From NCBI GenBank assembly GCA_022826965.1, contig JAJDTU010000012.1:1-64000 (forward strand): a DNA stretch of 64,000 nt. Reading direction: 5' to 3'. Shown here piece by piece: positions 2,088 to 21,811 of this stretch (its first letter is position 1; each line of letters starts with the position of its first letter). Origin of the DNA: Dehalococcoidia bacterium. GTDB lineage: Bacteria > Chloroflexota > Dehalococcoidia > Bin125. A model generated the notes under the pieces. It saw only the letters and a program-made list of their open reading frames with translations, did no database searches and was not told the origin of the DNA. The position numbers were made by a program, and so were the translations under genes.

Positions 2088-4571
2088 ATGAATCAGATAC
2101 TTGAACGACTCAGCCGCCTCGTAACGGCCCGACCGTGGGTCACGCTGGGCGTGCTTCTGATCATCACCGTAGTGCTGGCCGCCGGTGCCGGCCGGCGCGT
2201 CCCGATCGTCGATGGCACCGACGTCGCACTGTTGCCCCAGGACGGAGCACTCGCCACTGCGATCGGAGAAATCAGCGACAGCTTTGAACAAACCGGAGAT
2301 GTGAGGCTCGTCACGCTGATCTTCCGAGGAGACGCACTCGCTCCTGAGGGACTGTCTCAGATGAGCGCTCTGCTCGACAAGATTGCCACCGACCCGGCGA
2401 TTCAGCCGCTGCTGACGCCGACCGATGCAATCGTGTCGCCTTCGTATCTGCTCCAGGCAGCGCTGGGAGTTGATTCCTTTGATGCGGTCACAGCGGCGGA
2501 AATCGACGCGGTTCGCCGCGCGCCGGAGGTTGCACCGATCATCAACGCGTTGACGGGCACCGATACGGACGGGACGTTCGTCTCAATCGCCACGGTGCAT
2601 CTGCGTAACACACAGGACGAGCGAACCGCAGACGCCGAGCGGCACATCAATCAGTTGGCTACAGAGGACAGCGGTCCGCTGAGCGTCAGCAGTGTATCGC
2701 CGATCGTCGTGGAGGATGAGTACAAGCAGGCGACCGAGGACGGGATGGCGCCGCTGATTGGCATCGCACTGTTGCTGATCGCCGTGTTGATTGTGCTGTT
2801 TCTGCGGACGCTCTCGGACCTGGTGCTGGCGCTTGTCGGGCTGCTGATCTCACTGATTTGGGTGATCGGTCTGGAGGGATGGCTCGGACCGGATGCGCTG
2901 GGAGTCGTTGGGCCGCCAAATGCGCTGACCGCGTTGGTTCCGATCATCATCATCGGCTTGACGGTCGACTATGCCATCCAGGTGATATCGAACTATCGAG
3001 AACAGCGAGGCGGCGGCGCGCCGGTGTTGGAAGCGGTGCGTTCGGGGCTGCGGAACGTGGCGATCCCGCTCATGCTCGCAGCGGTGACGACGATGGTCAG
3101 TTTGTTGGCGAATCTGTTCTCGCCGGTCGAGATCGTCGGCGACTTCGGGGTCGTTGCCGCGTTCGGCGTGGGCATGAGCCTGATCGTGATGCTGACGCTG
3201 GTTCCGGCAGGACGCACGATCGTCGACCGACGGCGCGAAGCCAAGGGCACGCTGGGGCCACAACGATTGATTGCGCAGGCGATTCCGGGGATCGAGCGTG
3301 CAGCCGGGTTCCTCGGAACCAACGTTGCGCTGAGGCCGGCGCCGTTCGTATTGGTCGTGCTGGCTGTGACGATCGGCCTGGGTGTTGCCGCGACCGATCT
3401 GGAGTCGGAGTTCAGTATTCGCGACATCCTTCCGCGTGGAGGCACCGTGTTGGAAGACTGGGACACGCTCGATGCGGCGATCGGCGGCCCCACCGAACTG
3501 ACTACCGTCCTGATCAAGGCGGAGGCGACCGAGACGCGAACGCTGCTCAACCTGCGGGACCTTGCGGAGGCGTTCGCGGATGAGGAACGTCGACCCGAGT
3601 TCGCGGCCGGGCCGATACAGACGTCCTACGAGTTGCTGATTCGCGATTGGGTGACGGACAGCGGAGAGCCGGGCGACAAGTACGACCCGAGGCTGGCCGC
3701 GATGTTCCGGGACGCTTCGGCGGGCCTGCAGCTCGACGCTGCGCAGATGCAGCACCTTCTGGACGAGCTTGAATCGGTGGATCCGCAACTCTCGCATGCG
3801 CTCGTCAACGATCCCACCGGCCTAGACACGATCCTGGTTCAGTTCGCGACGATGTCCGGCGACAGCGTGGGGGCGAGGCAGGTCCAGGCGGAACTGGAGG
3901 CGCTCTGGATCGGCACCGACGGAGCGCTCACGGCGACATCCGAGAGCATCATCGGCGTGACGATCACCGACTCGATTACGGAACGACAGACCGAGGCGAT
4001 CAGCATCACGATTGCGGCGGCGCTGGGCATTCTCGCCATCTTCTTCTGGGTCACCCACCGCCAGCCGGCGCTGGCGCTCGTGGCCGTCGTGCCGATCGTG
4101 TTCGTCCTGATCTGGGTGCTGGGCACGATGGCGCTGCTGGGCATCCCCTACTCGCTAATCACCTCGATCATCACCGCGCTCTCGATCGGCATCGGCGTCG
4201 ATTACACCATCCATCTGATCCATCGTTACCGGGAGGAATTCACGCGGCTGCGCGATCCGGAGCAGGCCGCGATTCGAACGCTCTCCACCACCGGCTCAGC
4301 GCTGCTGGGCTCGGCGATGACAACGGCGCTCGGTCTCGGGGTGCTGATCGCCTCCCCGCTGCTGGCCTCACAACAGTTCGGCATCACCGCGGCGATCACG
4401 ATCGCCTACTCGCTGATTGTCTCCATCCTCGTCGTGCCCCCAGCGATGACGGTCTGGGGCGCATACCAGAACATGCGGCTCCGTTCGACGATGCAGCGGA
4501 TGTGGGATGAACTGGACGAGGCAATCGACGACATCCAGGAGCGCCACGAGCGGGAATCGACCCCCTCCTGA
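2088..4571 (+). CDS. MMPL/RND superfamily lipid transporter (HpnN/BstA-like)
   Basis: This 827-residue polytopic protein has the duplicated RND layout: one N-terminal membrane helix (about 18-36), an extracytoplasmic domain, a helix bundle (about 218-385), then a second copy of the same plan (helix near 418, bundle about 640-800). Both bundles contain the G-x-x-VDY motif (GLTVDY near 290, GIGVDY near 701) typical of MMPL and sterol-sensing-domain-like transporters. Relatives move hopanoids (HpnN) or bacterial sterols (BstA of Methylococcus). It is divergent from the lipoprotein upstream and converges on the P450 gene, at the left edge of the sterol genes, so sterol trafficking is a reasonable inference. 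No clear Shine-Dalgarno sequence precedes the ATG. Confidence 0.83.
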   Translation: MNQILERLSRLVTARPWVTLGVLLIITVVLAAGAGRRVPIVDGTDVALLPQDGALATAIGEISDSFEQTGDVRLVTLIFRGDALAPEGLSQMSALLDKIATDPAIQPLLTPTDAIVSPSYLLQAALGVDSFDAVTAAEIDAVRRAPEVAPIINALTGTDTDGTFVSIATVHLRNTQDERTADAERHINQLATEDSGPLSVSSVSPIVVEDEYKQATEDGMAPLIGIALLLIAVLIVLFLRTLSDLVLALVGLLISLIWVIGLEGWLGPDALGVVGPPNALTALVPIIIIGLTVDYAIQVISNYREQRGGGAPVLEAVRSGLRNVAIPLMLAAVTTMVSLLANLFSPVEIVGDFGVVAAFGVGMSLIVMLTLVPAGRTIVDRRREAKGTLGPQRLIAQAIPGIERAAGFLGTNVALRPAPFVLVVLAVTIGLGVAATDLESEFSIRDILPRGGTVLEDWDTLDAAIGGPTELTTVLIKAEATETRTLLNLRDLAEAFADEERRPEFAAGPIQTSYELLIRDWVTDSGEPGDKYDPRLAAMFRDASAGLQLDAAQMQHLLDELESVDPQLSHALVNDPTGLDTILVQFATMSGDSVGARQVQAELEALWIGTDGALTATSESIIGVTITDSITERQTEAISITIAAALGILAIFFWVTHRQPALALVAVVPIVFVLIWVLGTMALLGIPYSLITSIITALSIGIGVDYTIHLIHRYREEFTRLRDPEQAAIRTLSTTGSALLGSAMTTALGLGVLIASPLLASQQFGITAAITIAYSLIVSILVVPPAMTVWGAYQNMRLRSTMQRMWDELDEAIDDIQERHERESTPS

Positions 4572-4605: not shown

Positions 4606-6684
4606 CTAGTGGAGCACAGGGCAACCAAGGGCGGGCGCCGATCCGTTCGGTGCCTCCGCTGCCGGGATCTCGCGCCGTTGCCCGGCGATGTGGAACTTCA
4701 CCTTGTTGCTGATTGACAGCGATGGGAACGGGCTGATGCGTAGCTTGGCATTCGTTGGCCGGACTTCCACGTCGTAGTAGTACGCAACCATCAGCAGATC
4801 GACAGCCATCTGCAGTTCCACCCATCGGTTGCCCAGACAGGTGTGTGTGCCCAATCCGAACGGTGCGTAACCGAGCGTGCGATGCTCGTCGCGGCCCGGC
4901 AGATAGCGATCGATGTCGAATGTGTGCGGGTCGGGGAACACATCGCTCATGTAATGCGCGGCGGTCTGCACGACCAGCACCCGAGCGCTCAATGGGAGTT
5001 CGTAGTTCTCGACGACGCAGCTGTTCATGACGTTCCGGAGCGAGCCGGGTACGACCGGGTACATCCGCAGGCACTCCAGGACAAAGCGTCGAGTGACATC
5101 AATGTCTGGACCCTGGAAGACCTCGGCGTCGGGATCGCCGTCGGCAAAGATCGCGTCGGCTTCGGCCTGAATCCTCTTGTACAGATCCGGCTGTGACGCC
5201 ATCGCGTAGAGCGCGAACCCGATCGTGTCGCCCAGGTACATGCTGGCCAGCAGCGGGGCCGAGAGCGCGAACTTCAAGCTCGACTCCGGCAGCAGCTGCG
5301 GATCATTCGCGTGCAGGCTGAGCAAGTCGTCGACGATGTCGCGTGGGGCATCGACCCGCTGGGCCGGGGTATGGGCCCGTTGCACTCGCTCGAGCATCGC
5401 CTCGATGCTCTTGGCGCGTTGCTTGATCGCCGGGGTCCGCAACAAGAACTTGGGCATCACCTTGGCCACGCGCGTGTTCAGCGCGCGCTCTTTGTACGCG
5501 ATCAGGTCCTCAATGATGTCCTGCGATTCAACGCTAGCCAGGAGCGGTGAGATCTGTGCATTGGTCATCAGCCGCGACATGGTCTTCGCGGGCATCGCGT
5601 CTCCGACGTTCCATTCGGCGAGATGCGACCGCATGCGCCGGTACAGCTCCTCCAACTGGCTCTCCAGTCGGGCCCGGGACAACCCCGGTTGCATCGCCTT
5701 GCGCATGCGAAAGTGGTCGGAACTGTCCAGTGATGGGATGATCCCGTGAGCGCCGTATTCCTCCTCGAGTTCGTTGAGGTACTTGGTCGAGGTCAGGAAT
5801 CGTCGGCCCTCGCGCTGAGCCCAGCGGTTGGCCTCCAGGCCCGTGAGGAAGATCGTCGGCTCCTGGAACGGCGGGGCCAATTGGAACACCGGCCCGTACT
5901 CTTCGGCCAGACTGGCGAACAGCGCCGGGACATTGCCTGTCCGGGCATGTGGATTGAACAGCAGGCGAAACAGGTTGACTTTCGGAATCGACCTGGTCAG
6001 CGCGGATTGTCGAACCAGGGGGCTGGTCAGATTCTGGGAAACGGCGTCGGAGATCGATCGGCCCAGCAGATCGAGATGGGCGACGAACTCGACACGTTCG
6101 TCATCCTTGGGCTCGAGCTGGAAGATGAAGCGCAGCACATCGCAAGTGTTGAGGAGCGAAATCAGGATCGCGTCCCGCGGATCGGGAATCTCGTCCTCGA
6201 ATATGACGCGCGCGATGCGTGATCTGACGAATCCGGCAGCGGTGATTGCCCCGGTCTCGCCGACCTGGTCCGACTGCCCCGCTGAGTGGCTCAACGTCCA
6301 GAACTCGCCCTCGTGATGCTCGAGGATGTCCATCTCTGCGAGGCGGTCGAGGGCAACGTCGATGAAGGTGTCGGCCCGAGGAGCGAGGAACTCGACCCAG
6401 TACTGAGCGTCGTGCTGGACCGGCTCGGCCACGATGGCTTCCAGGATCGGGTCCAATGCCGCATGGCCCGTTGGCTCTGAGTCGAGCAGTTGCAGTGAGT
6501 CCATATCCGTGTCGATGCGACCGATTAGAGAAAGCTCCGCCAGCCCGGCGCCGACCATGGCGCAGTTGAGGTTCCAGCCGCGGACCTGCCGAAAGTAGCC
6601 GCTCTCCTCGTTGAGCAGCATCAGCACCAGCTCTTGCGGCATGCTGAGCTGTGGTGCCGACAATGCGGGAGCAGCAGTAGTCAT
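4606..6684 (-). CDS. GPP34 (GOLPH3-like) domain fused to cytochrome P450
   Basis: The 692-residue product has two parts. Residues about 12-225 match the GPP34/Golgi phosphoprotein 3 fold: an EEL-LLLNEE-G start, a GAGLAELSLIGRI helix, the EPTGHAALD segment and PDPRDAILISLLN. Eukaryotic members bind PI4P membranes; bacterial ones have no settled function. Residues about 235-680 are a P450: the K-helix ExxR is E537-R540, and the heme loop FGLGTHTCLG has ligand Cys616. The I-helix has LGDT rather than the canonical AGxxT. The start is supported by AAGGAG eight bases upstream. It is divergent from a Rieske oxygenase and sits among sterol genes, so a membrane-docked sterol hydroxylase or demethylase is my inference. 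The substrate is unknown. Confidence 0.85.
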   Translation of the reverse strand: MTTAAPALSAPQLSMPQELVLMLLNEESGYFRQVRGWNLNCAMVGAGLAELSLIGRIDTDMDSLQLLDSEPTGHAALDPILEAIVAEPVQHDAQYWVEFLAPRADTFIDVALDRLAEMDILEHHEGEFWTLSHSAGQSDQVGETGAITAAGFVRSRIARVIFEDEIPDPRDAILISLLNTCDVLRFIFQLEPKDDERVEFVAHLDLLGRSISDAVSQNLTSPLVRQSALTRSIPKVNLFRLLFNPHARTGNVPALFASLAEEYGPVFQLAPPFQEPTIFLTGLEANRWAQREGRRFLTSTKYLNELEEEYGAHGIIPSLDSSDHFRMRKAMQPGLSRARLESQLEELYRRMRSHLAEWNVGDAMPAKTMSRLMTNAQISPLLASVESQDIIEDLIAYKERALNTRVAKVMPKFLLRTPAIKQRAKSIEAMLERVQRAHTPAQRVDAPRDIVDDLLSLHANDPQLLPESSLKFALSAPLLASMYLGDTIGFALYAMASQPDLYKRIQAEADAIFADGDPDAEVFQGPDIDVTRRFVLECLRMYPVVPGSLRNVMNSCVVENYELPLSARVLVVQTAAHYMSDVFPDPHTFDIDRYLPGRDEHRTLGYAPFGLGTHTCLGNRWVELQMAVDLLMVAYYYDVEVRPTNAKLRISPFPSLSISNKVKFHIAGQRREIPAAEAPNGSAPALGCPVLH

Positions 6685-6913: not shown

Positions 6914-7999
6914 ATGGCGCAGCGAATGGTCGATAGCGAAAGCTCCCTGTTGCCCTCACCGTTCCCCGAGGGCTGGTACTTCGTGACGACCCGGCGGGAC
7001 CTCCGCAAGTCCGAGGTCATCGAGAAGCAATGGATGGGCGAAGACATCGTCGTCTGGTGTGACGACGCTGGCGCCGTCTGTGTCGCCGAGGCGTACTGCC
7101 CTCACCTTGGCTCGCACCTCGGACCGGATTCGGGAGGTCAGGTGTGTGAGGGCCGGCTGGTCTGCCCGTTCCACGGTTACGAGTTCGACGCGACCGGCCA
7201 GTGCGTCGCCACGCCATTTGCGGCGCCGCCGCGCTCGGCGCGATTGAGGACCTTCCAGACCAGGGAAATCTGCGGCATGATCTTCGCCTGGTGGGGCATC
7301 GCCGGCCGAGAACCGCAATGGCAATTGCCGGCTGAGGAACCCGATCAGGCCGGCTGGAGCGGCATCAAACTCCACACCATGCGTTTCCCGGGCCATCCTC
7401 AGGAGACGACCGAGAACGCGGTCGATATCGCGCATCTGCGGTACGTCCACGGCTATCACAATGTCGACGGCGACTACCCAGTCCTGGTCGACGGGCCGCG
7501 CCTGGAAAGCCAGTTCGACTTCAGCAGAGCGCAGTCGATCGCAGGGATTGGCAGCATCACATTGAATGCCAGCGCCCGCGCAGGGGTCTTCGGTTTGGGC
7601 TACTCCTTTGTTGAGGGTCACGAACACTCGATTGGTATGGACTTCCGTCTGTGGGTGCTCTCAACACCGGTCGATGGCAGACTGGTCGAGCTGACGCTGG
7701 CCGGGCAGATCGGCGAGATGCGAGATCCCAAACGACCGGTCATCGGCTTGCGCTTCCTGCCCACCGGGCTGCGCGCGCCGCTGATGAACCGGATCTTCGG
7801 AGCATTTCAGAAGGTCGACGTGCAGCAGGATGTCGTGATCTGGAGCCGCAAGCGCTATCAGCCGAGGCCCCGCCTCTGCCGCTCCGACGGCGAGATCATG
7901 ACGTATCGCGGCTATTGCCGGCAGTTCTATCCCGCCCAGGAAGACGTTCTGCAGTTGCCGACGGAACAGGTGACCGCCGCACGTCTGGCAGGACGCTAG
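6914..7999 (+). CDS. Rieske non-heme iron oxygenase, Neverland/DAF-36-like
   Basis: This 361-residue oxygenase has an N-terminal Rieske [2Fe-2S] site (C62-x-H64 and C84-xx-H87) and a C-terminal mononuclear iron site in the pattern N168-xx-D171-xx-H174-xxxx-H179, where D171 would bridge electrons between subunits. The ETTENAVDIAHLRYVHG stretch resembles cholesterol 7-desaturases (Neverland/DAF-36) and 3-ketosteroid hydroxylases. In this sterol cluster it could desaturate at C-7 or oxidise the C-4 methyl group. AGGAG lies upstream of the ATG. The FAD oxidoreductase starts 2 bases after its stop, implying translational coupling. The exact reaction is inferred from family resemblance only. Confidence 0.85.
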   Translation: MAQRMVDSESSLLPSPFPEGWYFVTTRRDLRKSEVIEKQWMGEDIVVWCDDAGAVCVAEAYCPHLGSHLGPDSGGQVCEGRLVCPFHGYEFDATGQCVATPFAAPPRSARLRTFQTREICGMIFAWWGIAGREPQWQLPAEEPDQAGWSGIKLHTMRFPGHPQETTENAVDIAHLRYVHGYHNVDGDYPVLVDGPRLESQFDFSRAQSIAGIGSITLNASARAGVFGLGYSFVEGHEHSIGMDFRLWVLSTPVDGRLVELTLAGQIGEMRDPKRPVIGLRFLPTGLRAPLMNRIFGAFQKVDVQQDVVIWSRKRYQPRPRLCRSDGEIMTYRGYCRQFYPAQEDVLQLPTEQVTAARLAGR

Positions 8000-8001
8000 G
8001 T

Positions 8002-9360
8002 ATGGCCCGGCGGGTGGCGATTGTCGGCGGCGGGGTCGCGGGCCTCGGCGCGGCCTGGGCCCTGCACCAGCATCCCGATCGGTTTGAGTTCCGCTTGTTC
8101 GAAGCCAACGACCGGCTGGGGGGCAACGCGGTCACCATCGATATGCCGCAGTCAGACGGCAGCCGGATACCGTTCGACATTTCCGTCACGGCCTGCATCC
8201 CCTCGGTCTATCACCACATCACGCTGCTGTTGGAACGCTTCGGTATCGAGCTTGTCGACACGAGGTTCAACTACAGCGTGCGCTATCGAGGCGAGGTGTA
8301 CGCCCACGACTTCGATTCCGAGATCCGGACGGAGTTGCAGGACGAAATCGCGAGGTTTCAGCGCCTGCTGCAGGTCTTGCACCTCTTCGGGGCCTTGACG
8401 CGCTCGCGCTCGAAGCTGCTCAACGCGCTCAACCCCTTCAACTACATCAGCATGGGCACGCTGCTCAATCTGGGCGGCTTCTCCGGTGGCTTCAGGTACA
8501 AGATCCTGAAGCCGATGTTCGTCAATTTCCTGATGGCGACGAACGTGTTCGACATGCCGGCCGCGCTGTTTTCGCGCTATCTCGAGTTCTTCAACATCGA
8601 GTCGGCCACCCCGATGCAGACCTGGGACCAGGGCACCCGACGGATCTACGACTGCCTGTCGGCGGACTTCGCGGAGCACATCGACCTGAATCGCGCCGTG
8701 CGCAAGGTGTACCGGCGCAAGGCGGGCGTGGTGATCGAGGACGAGGCGGGCGTCCAGGAGACATTTGACGACGTGATCTTCGCGTGCAACGCGAATCAAA
8801 CGCTGATGATGCTGGACCGGCCGAGCTACCTCGAGCGCTATCTGCTCTCGTCCATCCGCTACGAGAGCGAGTTGCACAACCACGCGATCGTGCACTGGGA
8901 CGCGTCGGTCCTGCCGGAGAACCAGGTGAAGCCGTTGGAGACCCGCAGCAATCACATCGAGCAATACGGCGCCCGCCCGGACAACTATGAGATCACCTAC
9001 ATCATGCATAACCAGCAGCCGTGGGTGAACGGCTCGGAGCGGCCTTGCCTGGTGACCTACAACCCGGTCAGCGCGATCGAGGAGCAGAAGATCATCCACC
9101 GGGGCTGGTTTCAGCACGTCGTGCACGACGTGAAGCACGTGGTGCTCCTGGTCAACCTGTTCCGGTTCATCCAGGGCAGGCGGGGCGCGTGGCACTGTGG
9201 AGCGCACACCTTGATCAACAGCCAGGAGACCTGCTTCGTGACCGGCCTGGGCGTGGCAAGACAGCTCGGCGCGGACTACCCATTCGAGGATCCCGAGGCA
9301 AAGCGCTGGTTCAATCATTACGGCAGCATCCTCTACGGCCGCAATTTTCGCGGGGCATAG
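8002..9360 (+). CDS. FAD-dependent amine-oxidase/desaturase-like oxidoreductase
   Basis: This 452-residue flavoprotein starts with the Rossmann dinucleotide motif VAIVGGGVAGLGAAW, followed by an acidic strand end (LFEAND) and RLGGNAVTI, the layout of amine-oxidase/phytoene-desaturase proteins and of the predicted NAD/FAD-binding group COG2907. The C-terminal segment near GAHTLINSQETCFVTGL resembles the closing FAD motif. An in-frame reading extends upstream to 7651 through the Rieske gene, but the ATG at 8002, 2 bases past the Rieske stop, is the sensible start. Pairing with the Rieske enzyme suggests a linked sterol redox step (desaturation, isomerisation or saturation). I cannot name the substrate. 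Confidence 0.78.
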   Translation: MARRVAIVGGGVAGLGAAWALHQHPDRFEFRLFEANDRLGGNAVTIDMPQSDGSRIPFDISVTACIPSVYHHITLLLERFGIELVDTRFNYSVRYRGEVYAHDFDSEIRTELQDEIARFQRLLQVLHLFGALTRSRSKLLNALNPFNYISMGTLLNLGGFSGGFRYKILKPMFVNFLMATNVFDMPAALFSRYLEFFNIESATPMQTWDQGTRRIYDCLSADFAEHIDLNRAVRKVYRRKAGVVIEDEAGVQETFDDVIFACNANQTLMMLDRPSYLERYLLSSIRYESELHNHAIVHWDASVLPENQVKPLETRSNHIEQYGARPDNYEITYIMHNQQPWVNGSERPCLVTYNPVSAIEEQKIIHRGWFQHVVHDVKHVVLLVNLFRFIQGRRGAWHCGAHTLINSQETCFVTGLGVARQLGADYPFEDPEAKRWFNHYGSILYGRNFRGA

Positions 9361-12622: not shown

Positions 12623-13717
12623 ATGGCTTCGCAGTCGTCCGAAAGTCCCTCCGGCACATCTTCGCCGCCCATGTTCCTGACGGGCGCGGCCGGCCACGTG
12701 GGGGCGAATCTTGTGCGCAGATTGCTCGACGACGGCGTTCGCGTCCGCGTGTTGCTGAGACAAGAGGACAACAACGAAGCCGTGGATGGGCTCGATGTCG
12801 AGCGTGTCTACGGCGATATCCGCGACCTGGACGCCACGAGGCAAGCGCTGGCAGGCTGTCACGGCGTCTTTCATGTCGCCGCCCTCGTTTCGACCATTGA
12901 TGGCAACGATGCACACCGCCGCGACGTCTTCGAGTCCAACGTGCTCGGCACTCGCAACGTGCTCCAGGCGGCGCGCGAGATGGAGGCCGGCAAGGTCGTG
13001 GTCACGGGCTCGTTCAGCGCCGTCGGCTACGACCTGGACGACACCTCCGCTCCTACCAGGGAATCGATGCCCTTCTATCCCATGGAACGCACGATGCCCT
13101 ACGAGCGCAGCAAGGCAATGGTCGAGACCGAGTGTTGGCAGGCGGCCGCGTCCGGCCAGGAGGTCGTCATCGCCACCTGCTGCGCGGTGCTCGGGGGCAA
13201 CGATTTTCTGCCCTCGCGAGTCGGTCGGACGCTGTGCGATTTCGCCAACCGCAAGCTCCACGCCTACGTCGACGGCGGATTCGAGTTCGTGGCCGCGCGT
13301 GACATCGTGCAGGGCCATCTGCTGTGCATGGAACGCGGGCGGTCGGGTCAGAAGTACATCTTCAGCACCCAGTATCAGACCATCTCCGACCTGCTCGATC
13401 ACTTCCAGGAAGTGACTGGCGTCGGGCGGCCGCGTCGGCAGATGCCGCTCGGCCTGATGCTCCCGTTCTCGGAGGTGGCGAGCTACGCCCTCAGCCGTCT
13501 CTGGCCGAGCTATCCCCAGCGCTTCACCCCCGGCGCGATCCGCCTGCTGCAGCAGTGTCGTCACGCCGACACCAGCAAAGCGAAGGAGGAACTCGGTTTC
13601 CAGCCGTCGACGATCCGCGGCGCGATCGAGGACGCCTACGCGTTTCACTATGAGCGCAATGCGATTACGAACTCACGCGCCAAGCGCCCGGCAACGACAG
13701 TCACGACGGGTGGCTAG
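12623..13717 (+). CDS. NAD(P)-dependent 3-beta-hydroxysteroid dehydrogenase-like SDR (SdmB candidate)
   Basis: This 364-residue extended short-chain dehydrogenase has the nucleotide motif TGAAGHVG (residues 20-27) and the catalytic pair Y160-xxx-K164 in YERSK, with an upstream Ser-rich strand (VVTGSFSAVGY). Extended SDRs of the 3-beta-HSD/NSDHL group oxidise the 3-hydroxyl of a 4-carboxysterol, triggering decarboxylation. In Methylococcus the pair SdmA (Rieske) and SdmB (SDR) removes a C-4 methyl group. Here the next gene, 58 bases downstream, is a Rieske oxygenase, so the same pairing is likely. GGAG precedes the ATG. It begins the main sterol operon. Confidence 0.83.
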   Translation: MASQSSESPSGTSSPPMFLTGAAGHVGANLVRRLLDDGVRVRVLLRQEDNNEAVDGLDVERVYGDIRDLDATRQALAGCHGVFHVAALVSTIDGNDAHRRDVFESNVLGTRNVLQAAREMEAGKVVVTGSFSAVGYDLDDTSAPTRESMPFYPMERTMPYERSKAMVETECWQAAASGQEVVIATCCAVLGGNDFLPSRVGRTLCDFANRKLHAYVDGGFEFVAARDIVQGHLLCMERGRSGQKYIFSTQYQTISDLLDHFQEVTGVGRPRRQMPLGLMLPFSEVASYALSRLWPSYPQRFTPGAIRLLQQCRHADTSKAKEELGFQPSTIRGAIEDAYAFHYERNAITNSRAKRPATTVTTGG

Positions 13718-13775: not shown

Positions 13776-14885
13776 ATGAGCGTCGATATCGAGTCGCCAT
13801 CGGCCGGACCCCCAGGGTTCGCGAATGCCGACAACCTGCGTCAGCGGGCACGATCCGTAGGGATGAATCCTGATTACTGGTACGCGGTCGAAGAGGTACG
13901 AAGGATCAACCCCGGCACGGTGACCGAGGTGGTGTTCTGGAAGCAATCAATCGCGCTGTTCCGCTCAGAGGATGGTTCCTTCCACGCGGTCGAGAATCGC
14001 TGTCTGCACCGCCAGATCAAGCTCTCGCTCGGCGAGGTTGAGGGTTGCCGGCTCGTCTGCGGTTACCACGGCTGGGAGTACGACGAGGACGGCCGTGTGG
14101 CCGAGATCCCGGACCTGTTTGGGCGCAAGGAGGTACCGCGACTGTCGGTGCGGTCGTATCCCGTGCAGGTCCGCTACGGGTTGGTCTGGATCTTCCCGGG
14201 CGATCCGGCCAAGGCAACAGAGCGCCAGATCCCTGAGATCCCGGAACTCGAGGGACCCGGTCGATGGGCCTGCGTTCCGTTGAGGTTCGACCTCTCAGCC
14301 CACCACTCGATCATCATCGACAACGTGAGCGATTTCTCCCACGCCTACCTGCATCGTCAGTATCGTCCGTTCGACGGCGCGACGCTCACGCGTCACGAGA
14401 CCATCGGTGACGATGTGCACCTCGCCTATGAGACACGAGTGGGTCGCGGACGAATCTCCGGAAAATTCGTCGATCACAATCGTCTCAACACGAACCACAT
14501 GGAACTCTGCTACGAGTATCCCTACCAGCGATCGAACACTGACGACGAAATCAAGCACTGGCTCTTCGTGCTGCCGATCGATGAGCGGACGACGCGCACA
14601 TTTTTCCTCTTCTACTTCAGATCGCTCAAGCTCCCGATGCTGCCGATCCGCATTCCTCGCTGGGCCATGACCACCGTCTTGCGGCTCGCGAACCGGATGT
14701 TGATTGGCCCACTGCTTTCCCAGGATCGCTGGGCGGTCGAGGCCGAGCAAACCGGTTATGAGAAGAACTGGGAGGCTCCTCCGATCGAGGTCAATCCGGT
14801 AGTCCGCTCGTTCCAACAGGTGACGGTCCGCAAGTGGCAGGAATACCTCGACCGCGACGCTGCCGCAACCTCTATCGATGCCTGA
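13776..14885 (+). CDS. Rieske oxygenase, candidate sterol C-4 demethylase (SdmA-like)
   Basis: This 369-residue Rieske oxygenase has cluster ligands C76-x-H78 and C95-xx-H98 (CGYHGWEYD) and a mononuclear iron site N183-xx-D186-xx-H189-xxx-H193 in NVSDFSHAYLH. It differs clearly from the upstream Rieske protein, which has CPHLGSHLG and CPFHGYEFD. Its position between a 3-beta-HSD-like SDR and a Delta14-reductase-family gene makes oxidation of the C-4 methyl to a carboxylate the best-supported role. Its 3' end overlaps the next gene by 8 bases, which suggests translational coupling. No dedicated ferredoxin or reductase gene is nearby. Confidence 0.84.
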   Translation: MSVDIESPSAGPPGFANADNLRQRARSVGMNPDYWYAVEEVRRINPGTVTEVVFWKQSIALFRSEDGSFHAVENRCLHRQIKLSLGEVEGCRLVCGYHGWEYDEDGRVAEIPDLFGRKEVPRLSVRSYPVQVRYGLVWIFPGDPAKATERQIPEIPELEGPGRWACVPLRFDLSAHHSIIIDNVSDFSHAYLHRQYRPFDGATLTRHETIGDDVHLAYETRVGRGRISGKFVDHNRLNTNHMELCYEYPYQRSNTDDEIKHWLFVLPIDERTTRTFFLFYFRSLKLPMLPIRIPRWAMTTVLRLANRMLIGPLLSQDRWAVEAEQTGYEKNWEAPPIEVNPVVRSFQQVTVRKWQEYLDRDAAATSIDA

Positions 14886-15975
14886 GATCCCTTCGGCCTG
14901 GACGACGTTCTCCGGCCAGCACCTGCTCGAGGCGGCGGCGATCTTCCTGCTGTTTGTCGGCGTCCTGCTGGTCGGTTCGCGGTGGCTGCCGGGACGCAAC
15001 GTAGCGGGCAGGCCCGACGTCAATGGCGTCAGCCGTACCTACAAGCTCAACGGTCTCGCGCTGTTTCTGATCGTCATGCTCGTGGCCGTGCTCGCCGATG
15101 TCTTCGACCTGATCTCGCTATCGGTGCTGCATACGCACTTCGCCGAGCTCTTCGTTGTGGCGAACATCTTCGCCTGGGCTCTGTCGGGCGTTTTGTACTG
15201 GCAGGCCTCGCGCGGCCAGAGCGAGTCACCGGGACTCTGGCGAGGGGTGTTCTTTGGCCGTCAACTCAACCCCACCTGGTTTGGAGTCGACCTGAAGCTG
15301 TTCAGCTACCGACCCTCTCTCATCGCGCTCGCGCTGTTTAACGTGTCGTTTGCGGTGGTGCAGTACGACACTCACGGCGGACTCACGCTGCAGATGATTC
15401 TCTACCAGGCGTTCACGCTTTTGTATGTGTTGAACTACTTCCAGTTCGAGTACGGCATGATTTACACGTGGGACATCGTCTCGGAGCGGTTCGGCTGGAT
15501 GTTGGCGTGGGGGGACTATGTCCTGGTGCCGTTCTTCTACTGTCTGGCGGGCTGGTGGTTGATAGACACAACAGACTCCTGGCCGGCCGTGGCTGCGGCC
15601 GCGATCTGCGTGCTGTTTGTCGTCGGATTCTGTATGTTCCGCGGGGCCAACGAGCAGAAGCACCGCTTCAAGCAAAACACGGAGACGTCTATCTGGGGAC
15701 GGCCGGCCGAGTCGCTCGACGGGCGACTACTCGTGTCGGGGTTCTGGGGCGTGGGGCGGCATCTGAACTACTCGGGCGAGATCTGCGTGTATTTCTCGTT
15801 TGCGCTGACGACCGCGTTCTCATCGTGGATCCCGTATGCCTTGCCGGTATGGCTGACGGCGCTGTTGTGGCATCGTTCACGGCGCGATGATCGGCGTTGT
15901 CGAGCCAAATATGGCGACCTGTGGGAACGCTACACGCGGCGGGTGCCCCACGCGTTGATTCCGCGTGTCTACTAG
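14878..15975 (+). CDS. ERG4/ERG24-family sterol reductase (Delta14 or Delta7)
   Basis: A 365-residue polytopic membrane protein of the ERG24/DHCR7/lamin-B-receptor family, which uses NADPH to reduce sterol ring double bonds. The C-terminal half is diagnostic: LLVSGFWGVGRHLNYSGEI and the closing RRCRAKYGDLWERYTRRVP-x-ALIPRVY nearly match eukaryotic DHCR7 and Delta14-reductases. The early FFGRQLNPTWFGVDLKLFSYRP segment also fits. It overlaps the Rieske stop by 8 bases and is followed 32 bases later by CYP51, whose product carries a Delta14 double bond, so Delta14 reduction is the most economical role. Delta7 reduction cannot be excluded from sequence alone. Confidence 0.88.
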   Translation: MPEIPSAWTTFSGQHLLEAAAIFLLFVGVLLVGSRWLPGRNVAGRPDVNGVSRTYKLNGLALFLIVMLVAVLADVFDLISLSVLHTHFAELFVVANIFAWALSGVLYWQASRGQSESPGLWRGVFFGRQLNPTWFGVDLKLFSYRPSLIALALFNVSFAVVQYDTHGGLTLQMILYQAFTLLYVLNYFQFEYGMIYTWDIVSERFGWMLAWGDYVLVPFFYCLAGWWLIDTTDSWPAVAAAAICVLFVVGFCMFRGANEQKHRFKQNTETSIWGRPAESLDGRLLVSGFWGVGRHLNYSGEICVYFSFALTTAFSSWIPYALPVWLTALLWHRSRRDDRRCRAKYGDLWERYTRRVPHALIPRVY

Positions 15976-16007
15976 ACTCGCTATCTTGGCCTCCAGTAGG
16001 AACAGAG

Positions 16008-17396
16008 ATGACTGAACTGCCGGGCGTACTGACAACGTCGGAGGAGCATCGGGCCATTCCCGAGCTGGGCGGCGGGCTGCCGCTGCTCGGACACCTGTTG
16101 CAGTTCCAGCGTGACCCGGTGGCCATGCTAAGCCGAGGCTGGCGCGAACTGGGCGACCTGTACCGGTTCCGATTGGGCCCGCGTCAGTTTGTGCTGTTCA
16201 GCGGACCCGAGGCCCACGACGCATTCTTCAGCGCGCCGGAGGACCAACTCAACGCGAAGGCCGTCTATCAGTTCACGGTACCAATCTTCGGCCGCGGGGT
16301 TGCGTACGATGTCGCCCCGTCAATCATGGACGAGCAACTCGGTTTTCTCTATCCGGCGCTCCGGGACGCGGCGATGCAACGCTTTGCCCGGATCATGTTT
16401 GATGAGACTTCGCAGTTGGCCGACTCGCTTGGCGAAGAAGGTGAGCTTGATCTGCCCACCGCGATGAACGAGCTGACGGTCAAGATCGCCAGTCGCAGTC
16501 TGATCGGGCAGGAGGTTCGGGATCAGGTGGACGCGGGGTTCGCCGACGCGTATCACGATCTGCAGAAGGGCATCAACACTCTGGGCTTCTTCATGCCCCG
16601 CTTGCCCACTCCCGCGCATCGCAGCCGCGACCGCGCACGCGTGCAAGTGGCCGAGCTGTTCAGCCGGATCATGACGGCGCGCCGTCGCGCCGACGATTGT
16701 CCCGACGACTTCATGCAGTCGCTCATGGACGCCAGCTACAGCGACGGCCGCGCGTTGAGTGATGACGAGATCACCGGGATTCTGCTGACCGTGCTGTTCG
16801 CCGGTCAACACACGAGCGCCGTGCTCGCGACCTGGACAGGTCTCGAACTCTTGCGGGCGTCCCCCTACCTGGCCCGGGTGAGGGACGAGACGAGGGCCGT
16901 CTACGGCGAGGCGGGGAGTATGAGCCTCGAGGGTCTGAAGCAACAGGTGACCATGGAACACGCCGTACGTGAGTGCGAGCGGCTCCACCCGCCATTAATC
17001 CTGCTGATCCGCAAGGTGCTCAACCCGATGCGCTATGGCGACTACGTCGTGCCCTCCGGCAGCCTGGCCATGGTGTCGCCGGCGGTCTCGCACCGCCTGC
17101 CGCATCTGTTCGCCGACCCGGACCGGTTCGACCCGGATCGCTTTGCCCCGCCCGCGCGTGAGGACAAACAGCACCACTACAGCTTGATCGGTTTCGGCGG
17201 CGGAAAGCACCGTTGCATGGGAAAGCACTTCGCCGAGATGCAGGTCAAAGCGATCTGGACCGTGCTGCTGGATCGGTTCGATTTCAGCCTCGAGACCGAC
17301 TTCCCGACACCCAACTACGGAAGTTGGGTGACCGGTCCTGTGACGCCCTGCCGGCTCCGTTACCGGCGCCGTTCGCAGGGGAGAGTCTTCGGGTGA
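16008..17396 (+). CDS. cyp51: Sterol 14-alpha-demethylase, cytochrome P450 CYP51
   Basis: This 462-residue P450 carries CYP51 hallmarks. The I-helix reads AGQHTS (265-270; family AGxHTS), the K-helix is E322-CE-R325 in RECERLHPP, and the heme loop is FGGGKHRCMGKHFAEMQ with Cys403 as ligand. The B'-region NAKAVYQFTVPIFGRGVAYDV matches the CYP51 signature Y-x-F-x(5)-P-x-FGxGV-x-YD. CYP51 removes the 14-alpha-methyl of lanosterol-type sterols in three oxidations. The reading frame extends upstream to 15897, but ATG 16008, after AGGA, gives the normal P450 N-terminus. Its TGA overlaps the GTG start of the cyclase fusion. No long N-terminal membrane anchor is evident. Confidence 0.93.
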   Translation: MTELPGVLTTSEEHRAIPELGGGLPLLGHLLQFQRDPVAMLSRGWRELGDLYRFRLGPRQFVLFSGPEAHDAFFSAPEDQLNAKAVYQFTVPIFGRGVAYDVAPSIMDEQLGFLYPALRDAAMQRFARIMFDETSQLADSLGEEGELDLPTAMNELTVKIASRSLIGQEVRDQVDAGFADAYHDLQKGINTLGFFMPRLPTPAHRSRDRARVQVAELFSRIMTARRRADDCPDDFMQSLMDASYSDGRALSDDEITGILLTVLFAGQHTSAVLATWTGLELLRASPYLARVRDETRAVYGEAGSMSLEGLKQQVTMEHAVRECERLHPPLILLIRKVLNPMRYGDYVVPSGSLAMVSPAVSHRLPHLFADPDRFDPDRFAPPAREDKQHHYSLIGFGGGKHRCMGKHFAEMQVKAIWTVLLDRFDFSLETDFPTPNYGSWVTGPVTPCRLRYRRRSQGRVFG

Positions 17397-20300
17397 CGGA
17401 CACCGACATCGGCCGCTACGACGTGGCGATCGTTGGCGCGGGACCGGTCGGCAGCGTGTGCGCGATTGCCCACGCGCGCAAAGGCTATCGGGTCGCTCTG
17501 TTCGAGGCAAATCCTTCGGCGTCGAAACGACTCGCCGGCGAGTGGTTGCACCCCCCGGCGGTGCAAGTCCTGAATGAACTGGGCATATCCGTCGAAGGGG
17601 AAGTGCCGAGCAACTCGGGCGAAGGCTTCGCCGTGTTCCCGGAGGACGGTCACGACCCAATCGTCCTTCCGTACTCCAAGGGCTCCCGCAGCCTCGTGTG
17701 CGAACACTCGACGCTCGTCTCGCACCTCCGCCAGGTGGCGGCGAACGAGCCTGGGATTGACCTGAGACTCCACGCCCGCGTGCGTACCGTCGAAGACGGC
17801 CGGATCACGTTCACCCAGGACGATGTCAGTCATACAGCGCTGGCTGAGCGAATTGTCGGCGCCGATGGCCGATCCTCCGTGGTCCGGCGTTCGTTGGGCT
17901 TGGAGACGCGATCGAGAACCTGTTCGAGAATGATTGGGCTGACGCTGAAGGGGGTCGAACTGCCCTTCGAGGGTTACGGGCACGTCGTCAGCGGCGCTCC
18001 CGGACCGATGCTGATCTACCGCCTGAGCGACGATGATGTCCGGGCAGTCATCGATATCCCACTTGACCATTCTCCTCATGACTGGAAGGACCTGCTCTCG
18101 GAATCGTATGCACGCTGGATGCCGGAATCTCTCCGGTCCGCATTCATCGAGGCCTGGTCAGAGGAGCGTTTTCACGCCGCCGCCAATGTCGTCAGCCCGC
18201 GCCTCACATACGGAACTTCACGTCGCGTGCTGATTGGCGACGCCGCCGGGCATTACCATCCATTGACCGCCACCGGGATCACCCTTGGCTTCGGCGATGC
18301 CTACGCGTTGGCCGAGAGCGAAGAGTTTGGCGATTTCCGAAACGGTCGGTTCGAGGCGACTCGGGTTCCGGAGCTATTGGCGATGGGACTCTACGAGGTC
18401 TTCGCCGATCCGCGCGCTGAAGGGGCCGCGCTCCGTCAGGCGATGTACAGTCGCTGGCGCGCGAGCTCCGGGGTGCGCGGCCGCACCATGCGACTGCTGG
18501 GCTGCGACGACACCTCGATACGCAGCTTGAGTTGGGAGTTCTCGACGACGGTGCTGTGGGCGCTCAGAGCGACAGTCCCAATGTCACTCAACCGGCTCGC
18601 CTGGCGCAGATACCGCGACGTCGCTCGCGGATTGAGCAATCGTCTGGGTTGGCTGCTGCGAGCCGCCTGGCACCTCTACAACGTCAGACGCGCCGGCGGA
18701 ACGGATGCCGAACGTCCCACCGAGGCCCTTGCGCGAGCGTTCCTGACCTCTATGCCATCAGGGTCGTCCGCTTCGCGACGGGACGACGAGCCCCGCCGGA
18801 CGGAGGCAGGCTCGCCCGATGCCGGTCCAGCGCTGCAGAGAGCCACTGCGCGCCTGCTCGACCTTCAGGGCGAGGACGGCGGTTGGGAAGGCGAAATGGT
18901 CTGGTGCCCGATGATCACCGCGCAGTGGGTACTGCTGCAGCACATCATCGGTCGGCCGATCGAGCCCGAGCGGCGTCGCCGCTTGCTGCGTTACTTCGAG
19001 CAATCGCGGTTGCCGGAAGGACTCTGGGGCCTGCATGATCACTCGACGCCGCATCTGTTCGTCACCACCTTGGTCTACGTCGCTGCACGGTTACTCGGCG
19101 TCGAGCGCGACGATCGGCTGATCGAGCCGGCGCGCCGATTCATGCAAGAGGACGGAACGCTCGGCATCCCAAGCTGGGGCAAGTTCTGGCTGGCGTTGCT
19201 CAATCTTTACGACTGGAGTGGACTGCACCCCGTCCTGCCTGAACTGTGGGGCCTCCCGCGCCGGCTGCCGCTGCATCCCTCTAACTGGTACTGCCACACG
19301 CGGCTGATCTACATGGCCATGGCCGCGATCTACGCGCGCCGATTTCAAACGCCCGTCACACCGCTGATCGCGTCCTTGCGCGAAGAGCTGTTCCCGCAGG
19401 GGTTCGAGAGTATCGATTTCCCCGCCAATCGCAGTCGCTTGCGCCAGGCCGATCTGTTCGCAGAACCGACGCGGTGGTTGCGAGGGCTGTATCGCGGAGC
19501 GCAACTCGTCGAACGGTTCCATAGCAAGCGCCTACGGGCCAAGTCGGTCGACGCAATGACCAAGCAGATCAAATGGGAACTGAACACGACAGACCATACG
19601 AGCATCTCTCCGGTCAGCGGCCTGCTCAACATCCTCGCCCTGTGGCTGCATGATCCCAAAGACGCAGACTGCCAGCGAGCGATCGAGCAGGCCGACCTCT
19701 GGTTCTGGGAAGACGACGAGCGCGGCGCACGCATGACCGGCGCCCGAAGCGCCTCGTGGGACACGGGATTCGCGCTGCAGGCGCTGTCGACGGCCCCACA
19801 ACTCGACGGAGTATCGGACGCGCTGCGTCGCGGGACCGCCTACCTTCAGGAGCAGCAGATCGACGCCAGCTTCCCCGGCTTTCGCGAGGCCTACCGCAAC
19901 GACCCGAAGGGCGGCTGGTGCTTCGCGGCGCAATGGCACGGCTGGCCGGTGTCCGACTGCACAGCCGAAGCCGCGCTTGGGATCATCGCTGCGGATCCCA
20001 CATCGGTCAGTCCGACTGCGCTGCGAGACGCGGTGCGCTTCATGTTGCGAGCTCAGAATCGCGACGGCGGGTTCGGCAGCTATGAGTCGCAGCGATCGCG
20101 ATTCGACCTCGAACGAATCAACCCGGCCGAGATGTTCGGCGAGTCGATGACCGAGAACTCTTATGTCGAGTGCACGGCTTCGTGCCTGGCGGCGCTCGCC
20201 GCCTGTCGGGAGCACTCGCCCGAGGTGATTGATCGCATGGCGGAGCGCGCCATGGAGCGGGCAGACGCCTCGCTTCGCCGGACGCAGGCAACGGACGGAT

Positions 20301-20749
20301 CGTGGCGCGGCGTCTGGGGCGTGCAGTACATCTACGGCACGTTCTTCGGGATCAGAGGCCTGATCGCCGGAGGGGCTGAGCCGAGCGATCCGGCGCTACG
20401 TTCGGCCTGCCAGTGGTTGCTGGATCGCCAGCGCGATGATGGCGGCTGGGGCGAGCATCATAGCGGCTGCATGACCGGGCAGTACGTAGCCCACGACGAG
20501 AGCCAGGTCATCCAGACCGCCTGGGCATTGATCGCCCTGCTTGAGGCGGGGGACGCCGACTGGACAGCGATCTCGCGGGGCATTCGCTTCCTCATCGACC
20601 GGCAGTGCGCGGATGGGACGTGGTCCCGGCAAGACATGGCAGGCGTCTTCTTCCGCACGGCGCTGCTGGACTACGTCCTCTACCGCCAGTACTTCCCCCT
20701 GCACGCGCTCGGACTCTACGAAGAGCGACGCCGGATCCGCGGCGCCTGA
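17393..20749 (+). CDS. Squalene-epoxidase-like flavoprotein fused to oxidosqualene cyclase
   Basis: One 1118-residue polypeptide. Residues 1-455 are a group-E-type FAD monooxygenase: GAGPVG (15-20), GADGR (156-160), and GDAAGHYHPLTATG (282-295), the counterpart of squalene epoxidase's GDA-x(4)-HPLTGGG. After a polar linker (about 455-478), residues about 480-1118 form a complete oxidosqualene cyclase: HPSNWYCHTR with H635 (human LSS H232), W789 (W387), DCTAE with acid D855 (D455), YVECTAS with C927 (C533), and several QxxDGGWG-type QW repeats. DCTAE, not DxDD, separates it from squalene-hopene cyclase. GTG at 17393 overlaps the CYP51 stop and follows AGGGGAGAG. It should convert squalene through 2,3-oxidosqualene to a lanosterol- or cycloartenol-type product. 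Confidence 0.95.
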   Translation: MTDTDIGRYDVAIVGAGPVGSVCAIAHARKGYRVALFEANPSASKRLAGEWLHPPAVQVLNELGISVEGEVPSNSGEGFAVFPEDGHDPIVLPYSKGSRSLVCEHSTLVSHLRQVAANEPGIDLRLHARVRTVEDGRITFTQDDVSHTALAERIVGADGRSSVVRRSLGLETRSRTCSRMIGLTLKGVELPFEGYGHVVSGAPGPMLIYRLSDDDVRAVIDIPLDHSPHDWKDLLSESYARWMPESLRSAFIEAWSEERFHAAANVVSPRLTYGTSRRVLIGDAAGHYHPLTATGITLGFGDAYALAESEEFGDFRNGRFEATRVPELLAMGLYEVFADPRAEGAALRQAMYSRWRASSGVRGRTMRLLGCDDTSIRSLSWEFSTTVLWALRATVPMSLNRLAWRRYRDVARGLSNRLGWLLRAAWHLYNVRRAGGTDAERPTEALARAFLTSMPSGSSASRRDDEPRRTEAGSPDAGPALQRATARLLDLQGEDGGWEGEMVWCPMITAQWVLLQHIIGRPIEPERRRRLLRYFEQSRLPEGLWGLHDHSTPHLFVTTLVYVAARLLGVERDDRLIEPARRFMQEDGTLGIPSWGKFWLALLNLYDWSGLHPVLPELWGLPRRLPLHPSNWYCHTRLIYMAMAAIYARRFQTPVTPLIASLREELFPQGFESIDFPANRSRLRQADLFAEPTRWLRGLYRGAQLVERFHSKRLRAKSVDAMTKQIKWELNTTDHTSISPVSGLLNILALWLHDPKDADCQRAIEQADLWFWEDDERGARMTGARSASWDTGFALQALSTAPQLDGVSDALRRGTAYLQEQQIDASFPGFREAYRNDPKGGWCFAAQWHGWPVSDCTAEAALGIIAADPTSVSPTALRDAVRFMLRAQNRDGGFGSYESQRSRFDLERINPAEMFGESMTENSYVECTASCLAALAACREHSPEVIDRMAERAMERADASLRRTQATDGSWRGVWGVQYIYGTFFGIRGLIAGGAEPSDPALRSACQWLLDRQRDDGGWGEHHSGCMTGQYVAHDESQVIQTAWALIALLEAGDADWTAISRGIRFLIDRQCADGTWSRQDMAGVFFRTALLDYVLYRQYFPLHALGLYEERRRIRGA

Positions 20750-20773: not shown

Positions 20774-21811
20774 CTAGTCCCCGCCAACCTCTGGCTTGCG
20801 CGCGAGGTAGTAGAACATTGGCGTGAACACGCCGCTGATCCCACCGTCGACCAGCGCGTCCGCGCCGGCGTTCAGCGCGCTGCTGATCTCCTGCGCCCCC
20901 TCCGGCACGATCCGCAGCTTCTCCCCAACTCCCAGCGCCAGGTTTGTCACGGCTCGGCCGATCGGTGTTCGAGGCAGACTCGTCAGATTAAAGTCGCGAC
21001 CCTGCAGCGGGCGATACCAGGGGGTCTCGGGATCCGATTCGGGGGCGAGATCGCGGGTCTCGACCAACTCGAAGCCGGCCTCGCGCAGCGCCGAGCTGAT
21101 CTCCGACGTGGGGGCGATATCGGGAAGTCCGTTGCCCTTCATGATGTCGTTCTTAATCCGCATGTGGTCTGCGTTTGCCGGATCAAACGAGTCGGTGAGG
21201 CACCAGTCGTAGCCCGCGAATCCACCGCCTGGACGGAGCACGCGGAAAATCTCGCTGAACACCCCGGTCTTGTCCGGCGCATGGGCAATGGCTTCGATGT
21301 TGATCGCGGCGTCGAAGTGGCCGTCCGCCTCTGGGACCTGCATGAAGTCGCCATGGATGAAGCGGCATTGCGACCCGAGATCCTTCGTGTACTCCTTCGC
21401 TCGCTCGATCTGGTAGGCGTTCAGATTGATGCCCACGAAGCTCGCGCCGGTGCGACGGGCCAGGTTGGCCATTGGCCCGCCGACTCCGCAGCCCACATCA
21501 AGCACTTGCATCCCGGACGTCATCGACAGCCGCTCGGCGAGGAACAGTTCATGCCTGAGCAAGGAAGCGCTCAAGCTCTCGCCCCGTCTCCGAGGGGCAA
21601 AGTGAAACGACCGGCCCCAGCCAAACTCGTAGAAGTCGGTTGCCAGGTTGTAGTAGTGATTGACGACCGTGTGATAACGGTCCTTGCGCTGTTCCACGCT
21701 CTCATCGAAGAGCTCGGAGTAGTCGTCAACTGCGGGCTTGACCTCATCCGGGGCCAGGTCCCCGACGGAGCGACCGCTCGACCGCTTTGCGAAGAATCGG
21801 CTCACCCGCAT
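20774..21811 (-). CDS. Sterol C-24 methyltransferase (SMT/ERG6 family)
   Basis: This 345-residue SAM-dependent methyltransferase shows the sterol-specific region I, YYNLATDFYEFGWGRSFHF (53-71), then SAM motif I LDVGCGVGGP (104-113), and the IEAIAHAP region corresponding to SMT region III (IEATCHAP). The C-terminal part carries a sterol-methyltransferase-like extension. SMTs add a methyl group to the sterol side chain at C-24 using SAM, at a Delta24 double bond. It converges on the cyclase fusion with only 24 bases between the stops and is transcribed separately. Its presence predicts C28 or C29 sterols. Length and motifs are normal for the family. Confidence 0.93.
   Translation of the reverse strand: MRVSRFFAKRSSGRSVGDLAPDEVKPAVDDYSELFDESVEQRKDRYHTVVNHYYNLATDFYEFGWGRSFHFAPRRRGESLSASLLRHELFLAERLSMTSGMQVLDVGCGVGGPMANLARRTGASFVGINLNAYQIERAKEYTKDLGSQCRFIHGDFMQVPEADGHFDAAINIEAIAHAPDKTGVFSEIFRVLRPGGGFAGYDWCLTDSFDPANADHMRIKNDIMKGNGLPDIAPTSEISSALREAGFELVETRDLAPESDPETPWYRPLQGRDFNLTSLPRTPIGRAVTNLALGVGEKLRIVPEGAQEISSALNAGADALVDGGISGVFTPMFYYLARKPEVGGD

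Follow-up and report, generated by a model that had tools for sequence, protein, structure and literature searches.

In this work, we ask what kind of enzyme is encoded by a gene that joins a GPP34/GOLPH3-like domain to a cytochrome P450, and what the first domain may do for the second. The gene (4606..6684, minus strand; 692 aa, P0001) lies in 64,000 nucleotides of a Dehalococcoidia bacterium (contig JAJDTU010000012.1, positions 1 to 64,000), which as a whole are referred to as the window, and its product is probably an undescribed sterol-modifying enzyme. Steroid gene clusters of sponge symbionts (PMC9531527, PMC10070321) and a GOLPH3-like protein of Streptomyces (PMC12402492) have already been described. 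No GPP34-P450 enzyme was found in the openly licensed literature searched, which agrees with the novelty claimed in a preliminary description of this DNA and is not proof of absence; openly licensed papers on sponge and Chloroflexi P450s and on sarasinosides likewise yielded no relevant gene report. To our knowledge, it would be the first enzyme on record to be built around a GOLPH3 domain. We know of almost nothing on the role of bacterial GPP34 proteins, for which the fusion provides a testable biochemical setting.

The preliminary description had given the exact coordinates of the gene, leaving the minus strand unstated, and had placed both domains in one protein. A Pfam search found both well over their cut-offs: GPP34 (PF05719) at residues 16-215 (6040..6639, minus strand; 100.2 bits versus a cut-off of 29.1, E 2.1e-28, profile positions 2-198 of 201) and p450 (PF00067) at residues 249-657 (4714..5940, minus strand; 121 bits, E 6e-35), with a basic linker between them (residues 216-250, 5935..6039, minus strand; net charge +5, mean +6.5 over the 78 homologues aligned). 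The AlphaFold2 model of the whole protein reached a pLDDT of 82. A species-wide scan of 84,980 genomes gave 120 relatives, from which 80 loci were kept, all of them matching as GPP34-P450 proteins. The frame runs uninterrupted across both domains in 77 of the 80; at one more (L039) it stays open as far as the contig end, giving 78 loci with a one-frame fusion, and the other two (L081 and L109) contain frame breaks. In the closest homologues both domains are in-frame, the only ATG start lying downstream of a stop codon. A fusion produced by chance or by assembly was rejected, since both domains share one frame in nearly all 80 loci. Every close relative of this P450 that was encountered was fused, and in 197 genomes of the class no other GPP34 fusion was detected, the domain being present either alone (~220 aa) or fused to the P450.

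Modelled alone with AlphaFold2 (pLDDT 82, pTM 0.82), the GPP34 part returned GOLPH3 and Vps74 folds, so the structure prediction supported the domain assignment as well. All eight PDB matches with E <= 1e-3 in Foldseek were GOLPH3 or Vps74 (best 9qpq, E 1.1e-8, TMq 0.71; eighth, E 9e-5), the next match having an E of 0.26, and a profile built from GPP34 domains, both fused and stand-alone, matched human GOLPH3 at E 5.5e-13. With GOLPH3/Vps74 (PF05719; 3kn1, 9qpq, 2zih) residues 16-215 of the fusion share the fold, the sequence family, a hydrophobic beta-hairpin and an Asp at the D247 site; they differ in lacking the PI4P residues and the ~10-residue insert carrying W161, in being fused to an enzyme and in being bacterial.

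These differences bear directly on the way in which the domain might reach a membrane. GOLPH3 contacts PI4P through W81, R90, R171 and R174, inserts a hairpin (190-201, tip F194-F197) into the membrane and contacts its clients through D247, D258 and D262 (PMC13408441). According to the alignments, in fusion homologues W81 is replaced by Val34 or Pro/Arg35, R90 by Val/Ile/Ala44, R171 by Asp/Glu105 (an acid in 77/77) and R174 by Ile/Val108. The domain is also strongly acidic (net -24; homologue mean -20), which does not favour binding to anionic membranes. On the other hand, the hairpin (residues 121-131, 6292..6324, minus strand) is kept, with F128 (76/78), W129 (75/78), T/S130 and L131 (75/78) aligned with the GOLPH3 tip, and the client-site residues D247 and D258 correspond to D182 and Asp/Glu191, each in 78/78, where the invariance of D182 may have a structural cause. 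In its strict form, the earlier proposal has GPP34 bind a phosphoinositide-like lipid and hand a sterol from the membrane over to the heme domain. True GOLPH3 homology and the kept hydrophobic hairpin are in its favour, yet none of the four PI4P contacts is retained, R171 having even given way to an acid, and we consider it very improbable. As for the broader claim of a membrane or lipid module, docking on PI4P-type lipids is unlikely given the loss of these four residues and the strong acidity, while a weaker membrane role may be served by the hydrophobic hairpin, which is kept. Judged by its residues, the domain is left with two options, membrane insertion through the hairpin and protein docking through the acidic side.

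Bacterial stand-alone GPP34 proteins (Streptomyces SCO4440, PMC12402492; L001 in this genome) belong to the same family as the fused domain, to which they are 25-40% identical, but have ~220 aa and no P450. Those that were aligned also lack the equivalents of W81 and R90, so the loss of these two residues is not special to the fusion. Within the class, most genomes with the fusion have stand-alone copies as well. A second GPP34 protein of the same genome (L142:8840-9493; G000:C13:134875-135471) is of this stand-alone kind, with no sterol-gene homologue within ~9 kb.

The P450 domain keeps its heme-binding features. The ExxR motif (residues 537-540; 5065..5076, minus strand) and the heme-ligand Cys616 (4837..4839, minus strand) are where the preliminary description had located them, E and R being present in 78/78 homologues and Cys in 77/78, and the FDIDRY region is conserved likewise. 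A P450-derived glycosyltransferase activator without heme Cys was rejected on the strength of the same 77/78. In one fusion copy (L036:10001-12076, also L007) Arg replaces Cys616; the genome concerned carries a second fusion copy (G003:C30).

The I-helix is a different matter. In the segment A480-S-M-Y483-L-G-D486 (5227..5247, minus strand) an invariant Tyr483 (78/78) occupies the position of the oxygen-activating Thr, and Val/Met482 (75/78) that of the acid, so that the canonical acid-alcohol (Asp/Glu-Thr) pair is absent. Tyr483 was placed by a MAFFT alignment with ordinary P450s of related genomes and by a residue count that starts at the conserved Pro following the I-helix; the usual AGxET motif has a one-residue gap next to it. 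The placement is less firm in the HMMER alignment to CYP51, where the segment carries a gap. Reading D486 as the acid and T487 as the alcohol was rejected, because the anchored alignments put Y483 at the Thr position. The invariant Tyr, on which ideas of P450 mechanism can be tested anew, argues against a textbook hydroxylase, and the fusion P450, as far as its sequence tells, may be no ordinary hydroxylase. The domain might even be a non-monooxygenase, that is a P450-fold isomerase or dehydrase, a peroxide-using enzyme or a heme sensor, for which Y483, V/M482 and the gap beside AGxET speak. Against this stand the kept heme Cys, ExxR and FDIDRY region, as well as the fact that some authentic monooxygenases tolerate the loss of the I-helix Thr, and we regard a non-monooxygenase as unlikely.

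Among solved proteins, bacterial CYP51s come closest in sequence. In structural comparison the AlphaFold2 model of the domain matches CYP46A1, CYP51 and other P450s, cholesterol 24-hydroxylase CYP46A1 having the top Z (35-36 over ~410 residues), followed by CYP170A1, CYP184A1 and CYP51 (~34), with the next family at 34.4. CYP46A1 is 16-17% identical to the fusion P450 and is anchored in the membrane by a helix; the shared fold shows no function. The nearest solved sequence, the CYP51-ferredoxin of Methylococcus capsulatus (6mcw), is likewise a fused bacterial P450 from a sterol context, but it is a 14-alpha-demethylase with a C-terminal redox partner and no GPP34, is ~19% identical to the fusion P450 in structural alignment and differs in the I-helix. 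The possibility that the fusion P450 itself serves as CYP51 of the pathway was rejected, as a true CYP51, ~26% identical to it over a partial alignment, is present in the window.

That CYP51 belongs to a sterol locus surrounding the fusion gene, and the sterol setting supposed earlier was thereby borne out, from a sterol-sensing MMPL to sterol methyltransferase (SMT) genes. Convergent with the fusion gene is an MMPL/RND transporter with a Pfam match to the sterol-sensing domain (2088..4571, plus strand). Divergent from it is a KshA-like Rieske oxygenase (6914..7999, plus strand; KshA_C E 1.5e-22; nearest solved KshA 4qdc, E 4e-24), followed by an FAD amine-oxidase-like protein (8002..9360, plus strand) with LkcE and then a polyenoic fatty-acid isomerase as the nearest solved proteins. 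Further along the plus strand there are a 3-beta-HSD/SdmB-like NAD-dependent enzyme (12623..13717), an SdmA-like Rieske C-4 demethylase (13776..14885; NF052579, 398.5 bits, E 2e-119, under the 600-bit cut-off), a sterol C-14 reductase-like protein (ERG4/ERG24; 14878..15975; Pfam E 4e-72), CYP51 sterol 14-alpha-demethylase (15897..17396; E 1e-107 to Methylococcus CYP51) and squalene epoxidase together with oxidosqualene cyclase (OSC) in one open frame (17213..20749; Pfam SE and SQHop_cyclase); an SMT-like sterol C-24 methyltransferase (20774..21811; Sterol_MT_C E 9e-20) lies on the minus strand. The epoxidase-OSC frame has 1178 aa, its true start being uncertain, and matches TIGR03463 with 752 bits, under the 851-bit cut-off. 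OSC-bearing frames of ~1146-1283 aa are found again in most genomes of the genus and also in a second genus, and at one locus (L138) squalene epoxidase and OSC are separate genes. ERG24, CYP51, OSC and SMT genes are also those of the Ircinia symbiont steroid clusters, known from sponge-symbiont MAGs of several phyla (PMC9531527; SMTs, PMC10070321), and the portion of the Ircinia cluster text available contains no mention of a GPP34-P450 or of a Rieske/FAD/MMPL module.

Around the other fusion copies, at least one homologue of Rieske, FAD, MMPL or SMT was detected by tblastn at 77 of the 80 loci. Within 10 kb we counted Rieske homologues at 62 loci, FAD at 55 (69-82% identity), MMPL at 46 (58-83%) and SMT at 38, and by Pfam the SMT-like and ERG4/24-like neighbours have Sterol_MT_C and ERG4_ERG24 domains. 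In two genomes of another genus (L138 and L139) a fusion copy is the direct convergent neighbour of OSC, which lies next to squalene epoxidase, and MMPL is found on the other side of the fusion. A redox partner was not recognised among the recurrent neighbours.

P450s and KshA act in actinobacterial cholesterol catabolism, and the module might start the degradation of host sterols or steroids rather than tailor them. This would suit the Rieske partner, to which KshA is the closest solved protein, and the many fusion genomes in which OSC and CYP51 are missing. Nevertheless, the flavoprotein is of the Amino_oxidase type (nearest LkcE), not the KstD-type FAD_binding_2, and the methyltransferase, ERG4/24-like and MMPL neighbours with the OSC junction fit synthesis or modification, which makes degradation in our opinion quite unlikely.

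Co-occurrence was counted in a sample of 393 genomes of the class, 38 of which contain the fusion. A true OSC (>=69% identity) is present in 18 of these 38 and in none of the 355 fusion-less genomes (Fisher p 6e-21), so that all 18 true-OSC genomes carry the fusion, and the KshA-like Rieske is present in 34/38 versus 1/355 (p 2e-43), both p-values ignoring shared ancestry. At genus level, Rieske is found in 10/10 fusion genera and OSC in 3/10. The only fusion-less genome of the sample with a close KshA-like Rieske (59% identity) has it at G241:C51:88108-89118. OSC is absent from 20 of the 38, and among 48 further fusion genomes from the species-wide scan, which may partly overlap the class sample, it was found in 5; CYP51 was found in 2 of 56 fusion genomes, a mostly OSC-less set. 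In one genome without OSC (G331) fragmentation is not the reason, since it consists of a single contig. The link between fusion and sterol genes expected earlier thus holds in part: de novo synthesis is not its common element (OSC absent from 20/38 and 43/48), while steroid-type genes, namely KshA-like Rieske, sterol-methyltransferase-like, ERG4/ERG24-like or MMPL, flank most copies. These counts mean that the module functions both in cells that make sterols de novo and in cells that do not. Where OSC (43/48) or CYP51 (54/56) is lacking, the case for a sterol substrate is made by the neighbouring genes only.

The same numbers allow for another lipid, such as a hopanoid, carotenoid, fatty acyl or polyketide-like compound, with the tie to sterol genes being secondary. 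Fusions without OSC are common, squalene-hopene-cyclase-like genes (~30% identity to OSC) occur in many fusion genomes, and the FAD partner has similarity to LkcE and to a fatty-acid isomerase. A non-sterol substrate is, however, hard to reconcile with the fusion in 18/18 true-OSC genomes of the class, with SMT-like, ERG4/24-like and KshA-like neighbours and with CYP51 and CYP46A1 as the nearest P450s; we think it rather unlikely.

We give even chances to the reading that the protein is a sterol-tailoring P450 which works with the KshA-like Rieske oxygenase and is held at the membrane, or at a membrane partner, by GPP34. It builds on the two domains and their conservation, the loss of PI4P residues, the kept hairpin and Asp182, the genomic linkage and the co-occurrence; from these we infer the reaction and its substrate, a host origin of that substrate, a place at the membrane, and the partners for docking and redox supply. 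The heme-thiolate P450 would tailor sterols or close steroid or triterpenoid relatives, partnered by the adjacent Rieske enzyme, and the FAD protein, the SMT-like enzyme and the MMPL transporter would probably belong to the same module. The GOLPH3-type domain would be a docking module that does not read PI4P: the hydrophobic hairpin and the basic linker might hold the P450 at the cytoplasmic membrane, and/or the acidic GOLPH3-like groove might bind basic cytosolic segments of a membrane partner. Depending on the presence of OSC and CYP51, the P450 would act on sterol made by the bacterium itself or, where both are absent, on a sterol from the sponge host, presumably the simplest sterol substrate for a cell without synthesis. 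In a bolder version, which we hold to be improbable, the acidic client groove tethers a Tyr-type non-canonical P450 to a membrane protein, such as a sterol transporter, and makes up with the KshA-like Rieske a host-sterol-remodelling assembly passed as a module between phyla in sponges.

Regarding a possible membrane partner, the MMPL protein has a conserved N-terminal L-V-T-x-R-P-W (39/43 ORFs match the pattern), resembling the GOLPH3 client motif; R-P-W starts seem common among MMPL proteins, and docking of the fusion on MMPL tails is only an idea. The cytosolic C-terminal tail of the MMPL beside the fusion, WGAYQNMRLRS...R.W.ELD.AID, is striking and kept.

Within the genus of the source bacterium, 13 of 14 relatives carry the fusion. 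Nearly all 80 loci come from what we take to be sponge MAG bins, their labels being recognised in part through PMC8163846, and the source bacterium is almost certainly a sponge symbiont. The taxon labels are mostly Chloroflexota and Acidimicrobiia; copies labelled Pseudomonadota, Poribacteria, Gemmatimonadota and Latescibacterota form a mixed group nested among Chloroflexota copies, which suggests transfer between sponge symbionts, and single cross-phylum cases could be due to binning errors. The enzyme adds an unassigned P450-Rieske pair to sponge-symbiont sterol chemistry, and this bears on which organisms produce those unusual sterols of sponges that serve as animal biomarkers.

Two minor observations concern DNA beyond the locus. 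A divergent third GPP34-P450 relative, 35% identical in GPP34, occupies a short contig in two frames (L140:2723-3793 and G004:C20:1743-2681). In the window, a protein with HTTM and vitamin K-dependent gamma-carboxylase lumenal domains (28635-30050, minus strand) adjoins imelysin, di-haem peroxidase, chlorite-dismutase-like and ferrochelatase genes.
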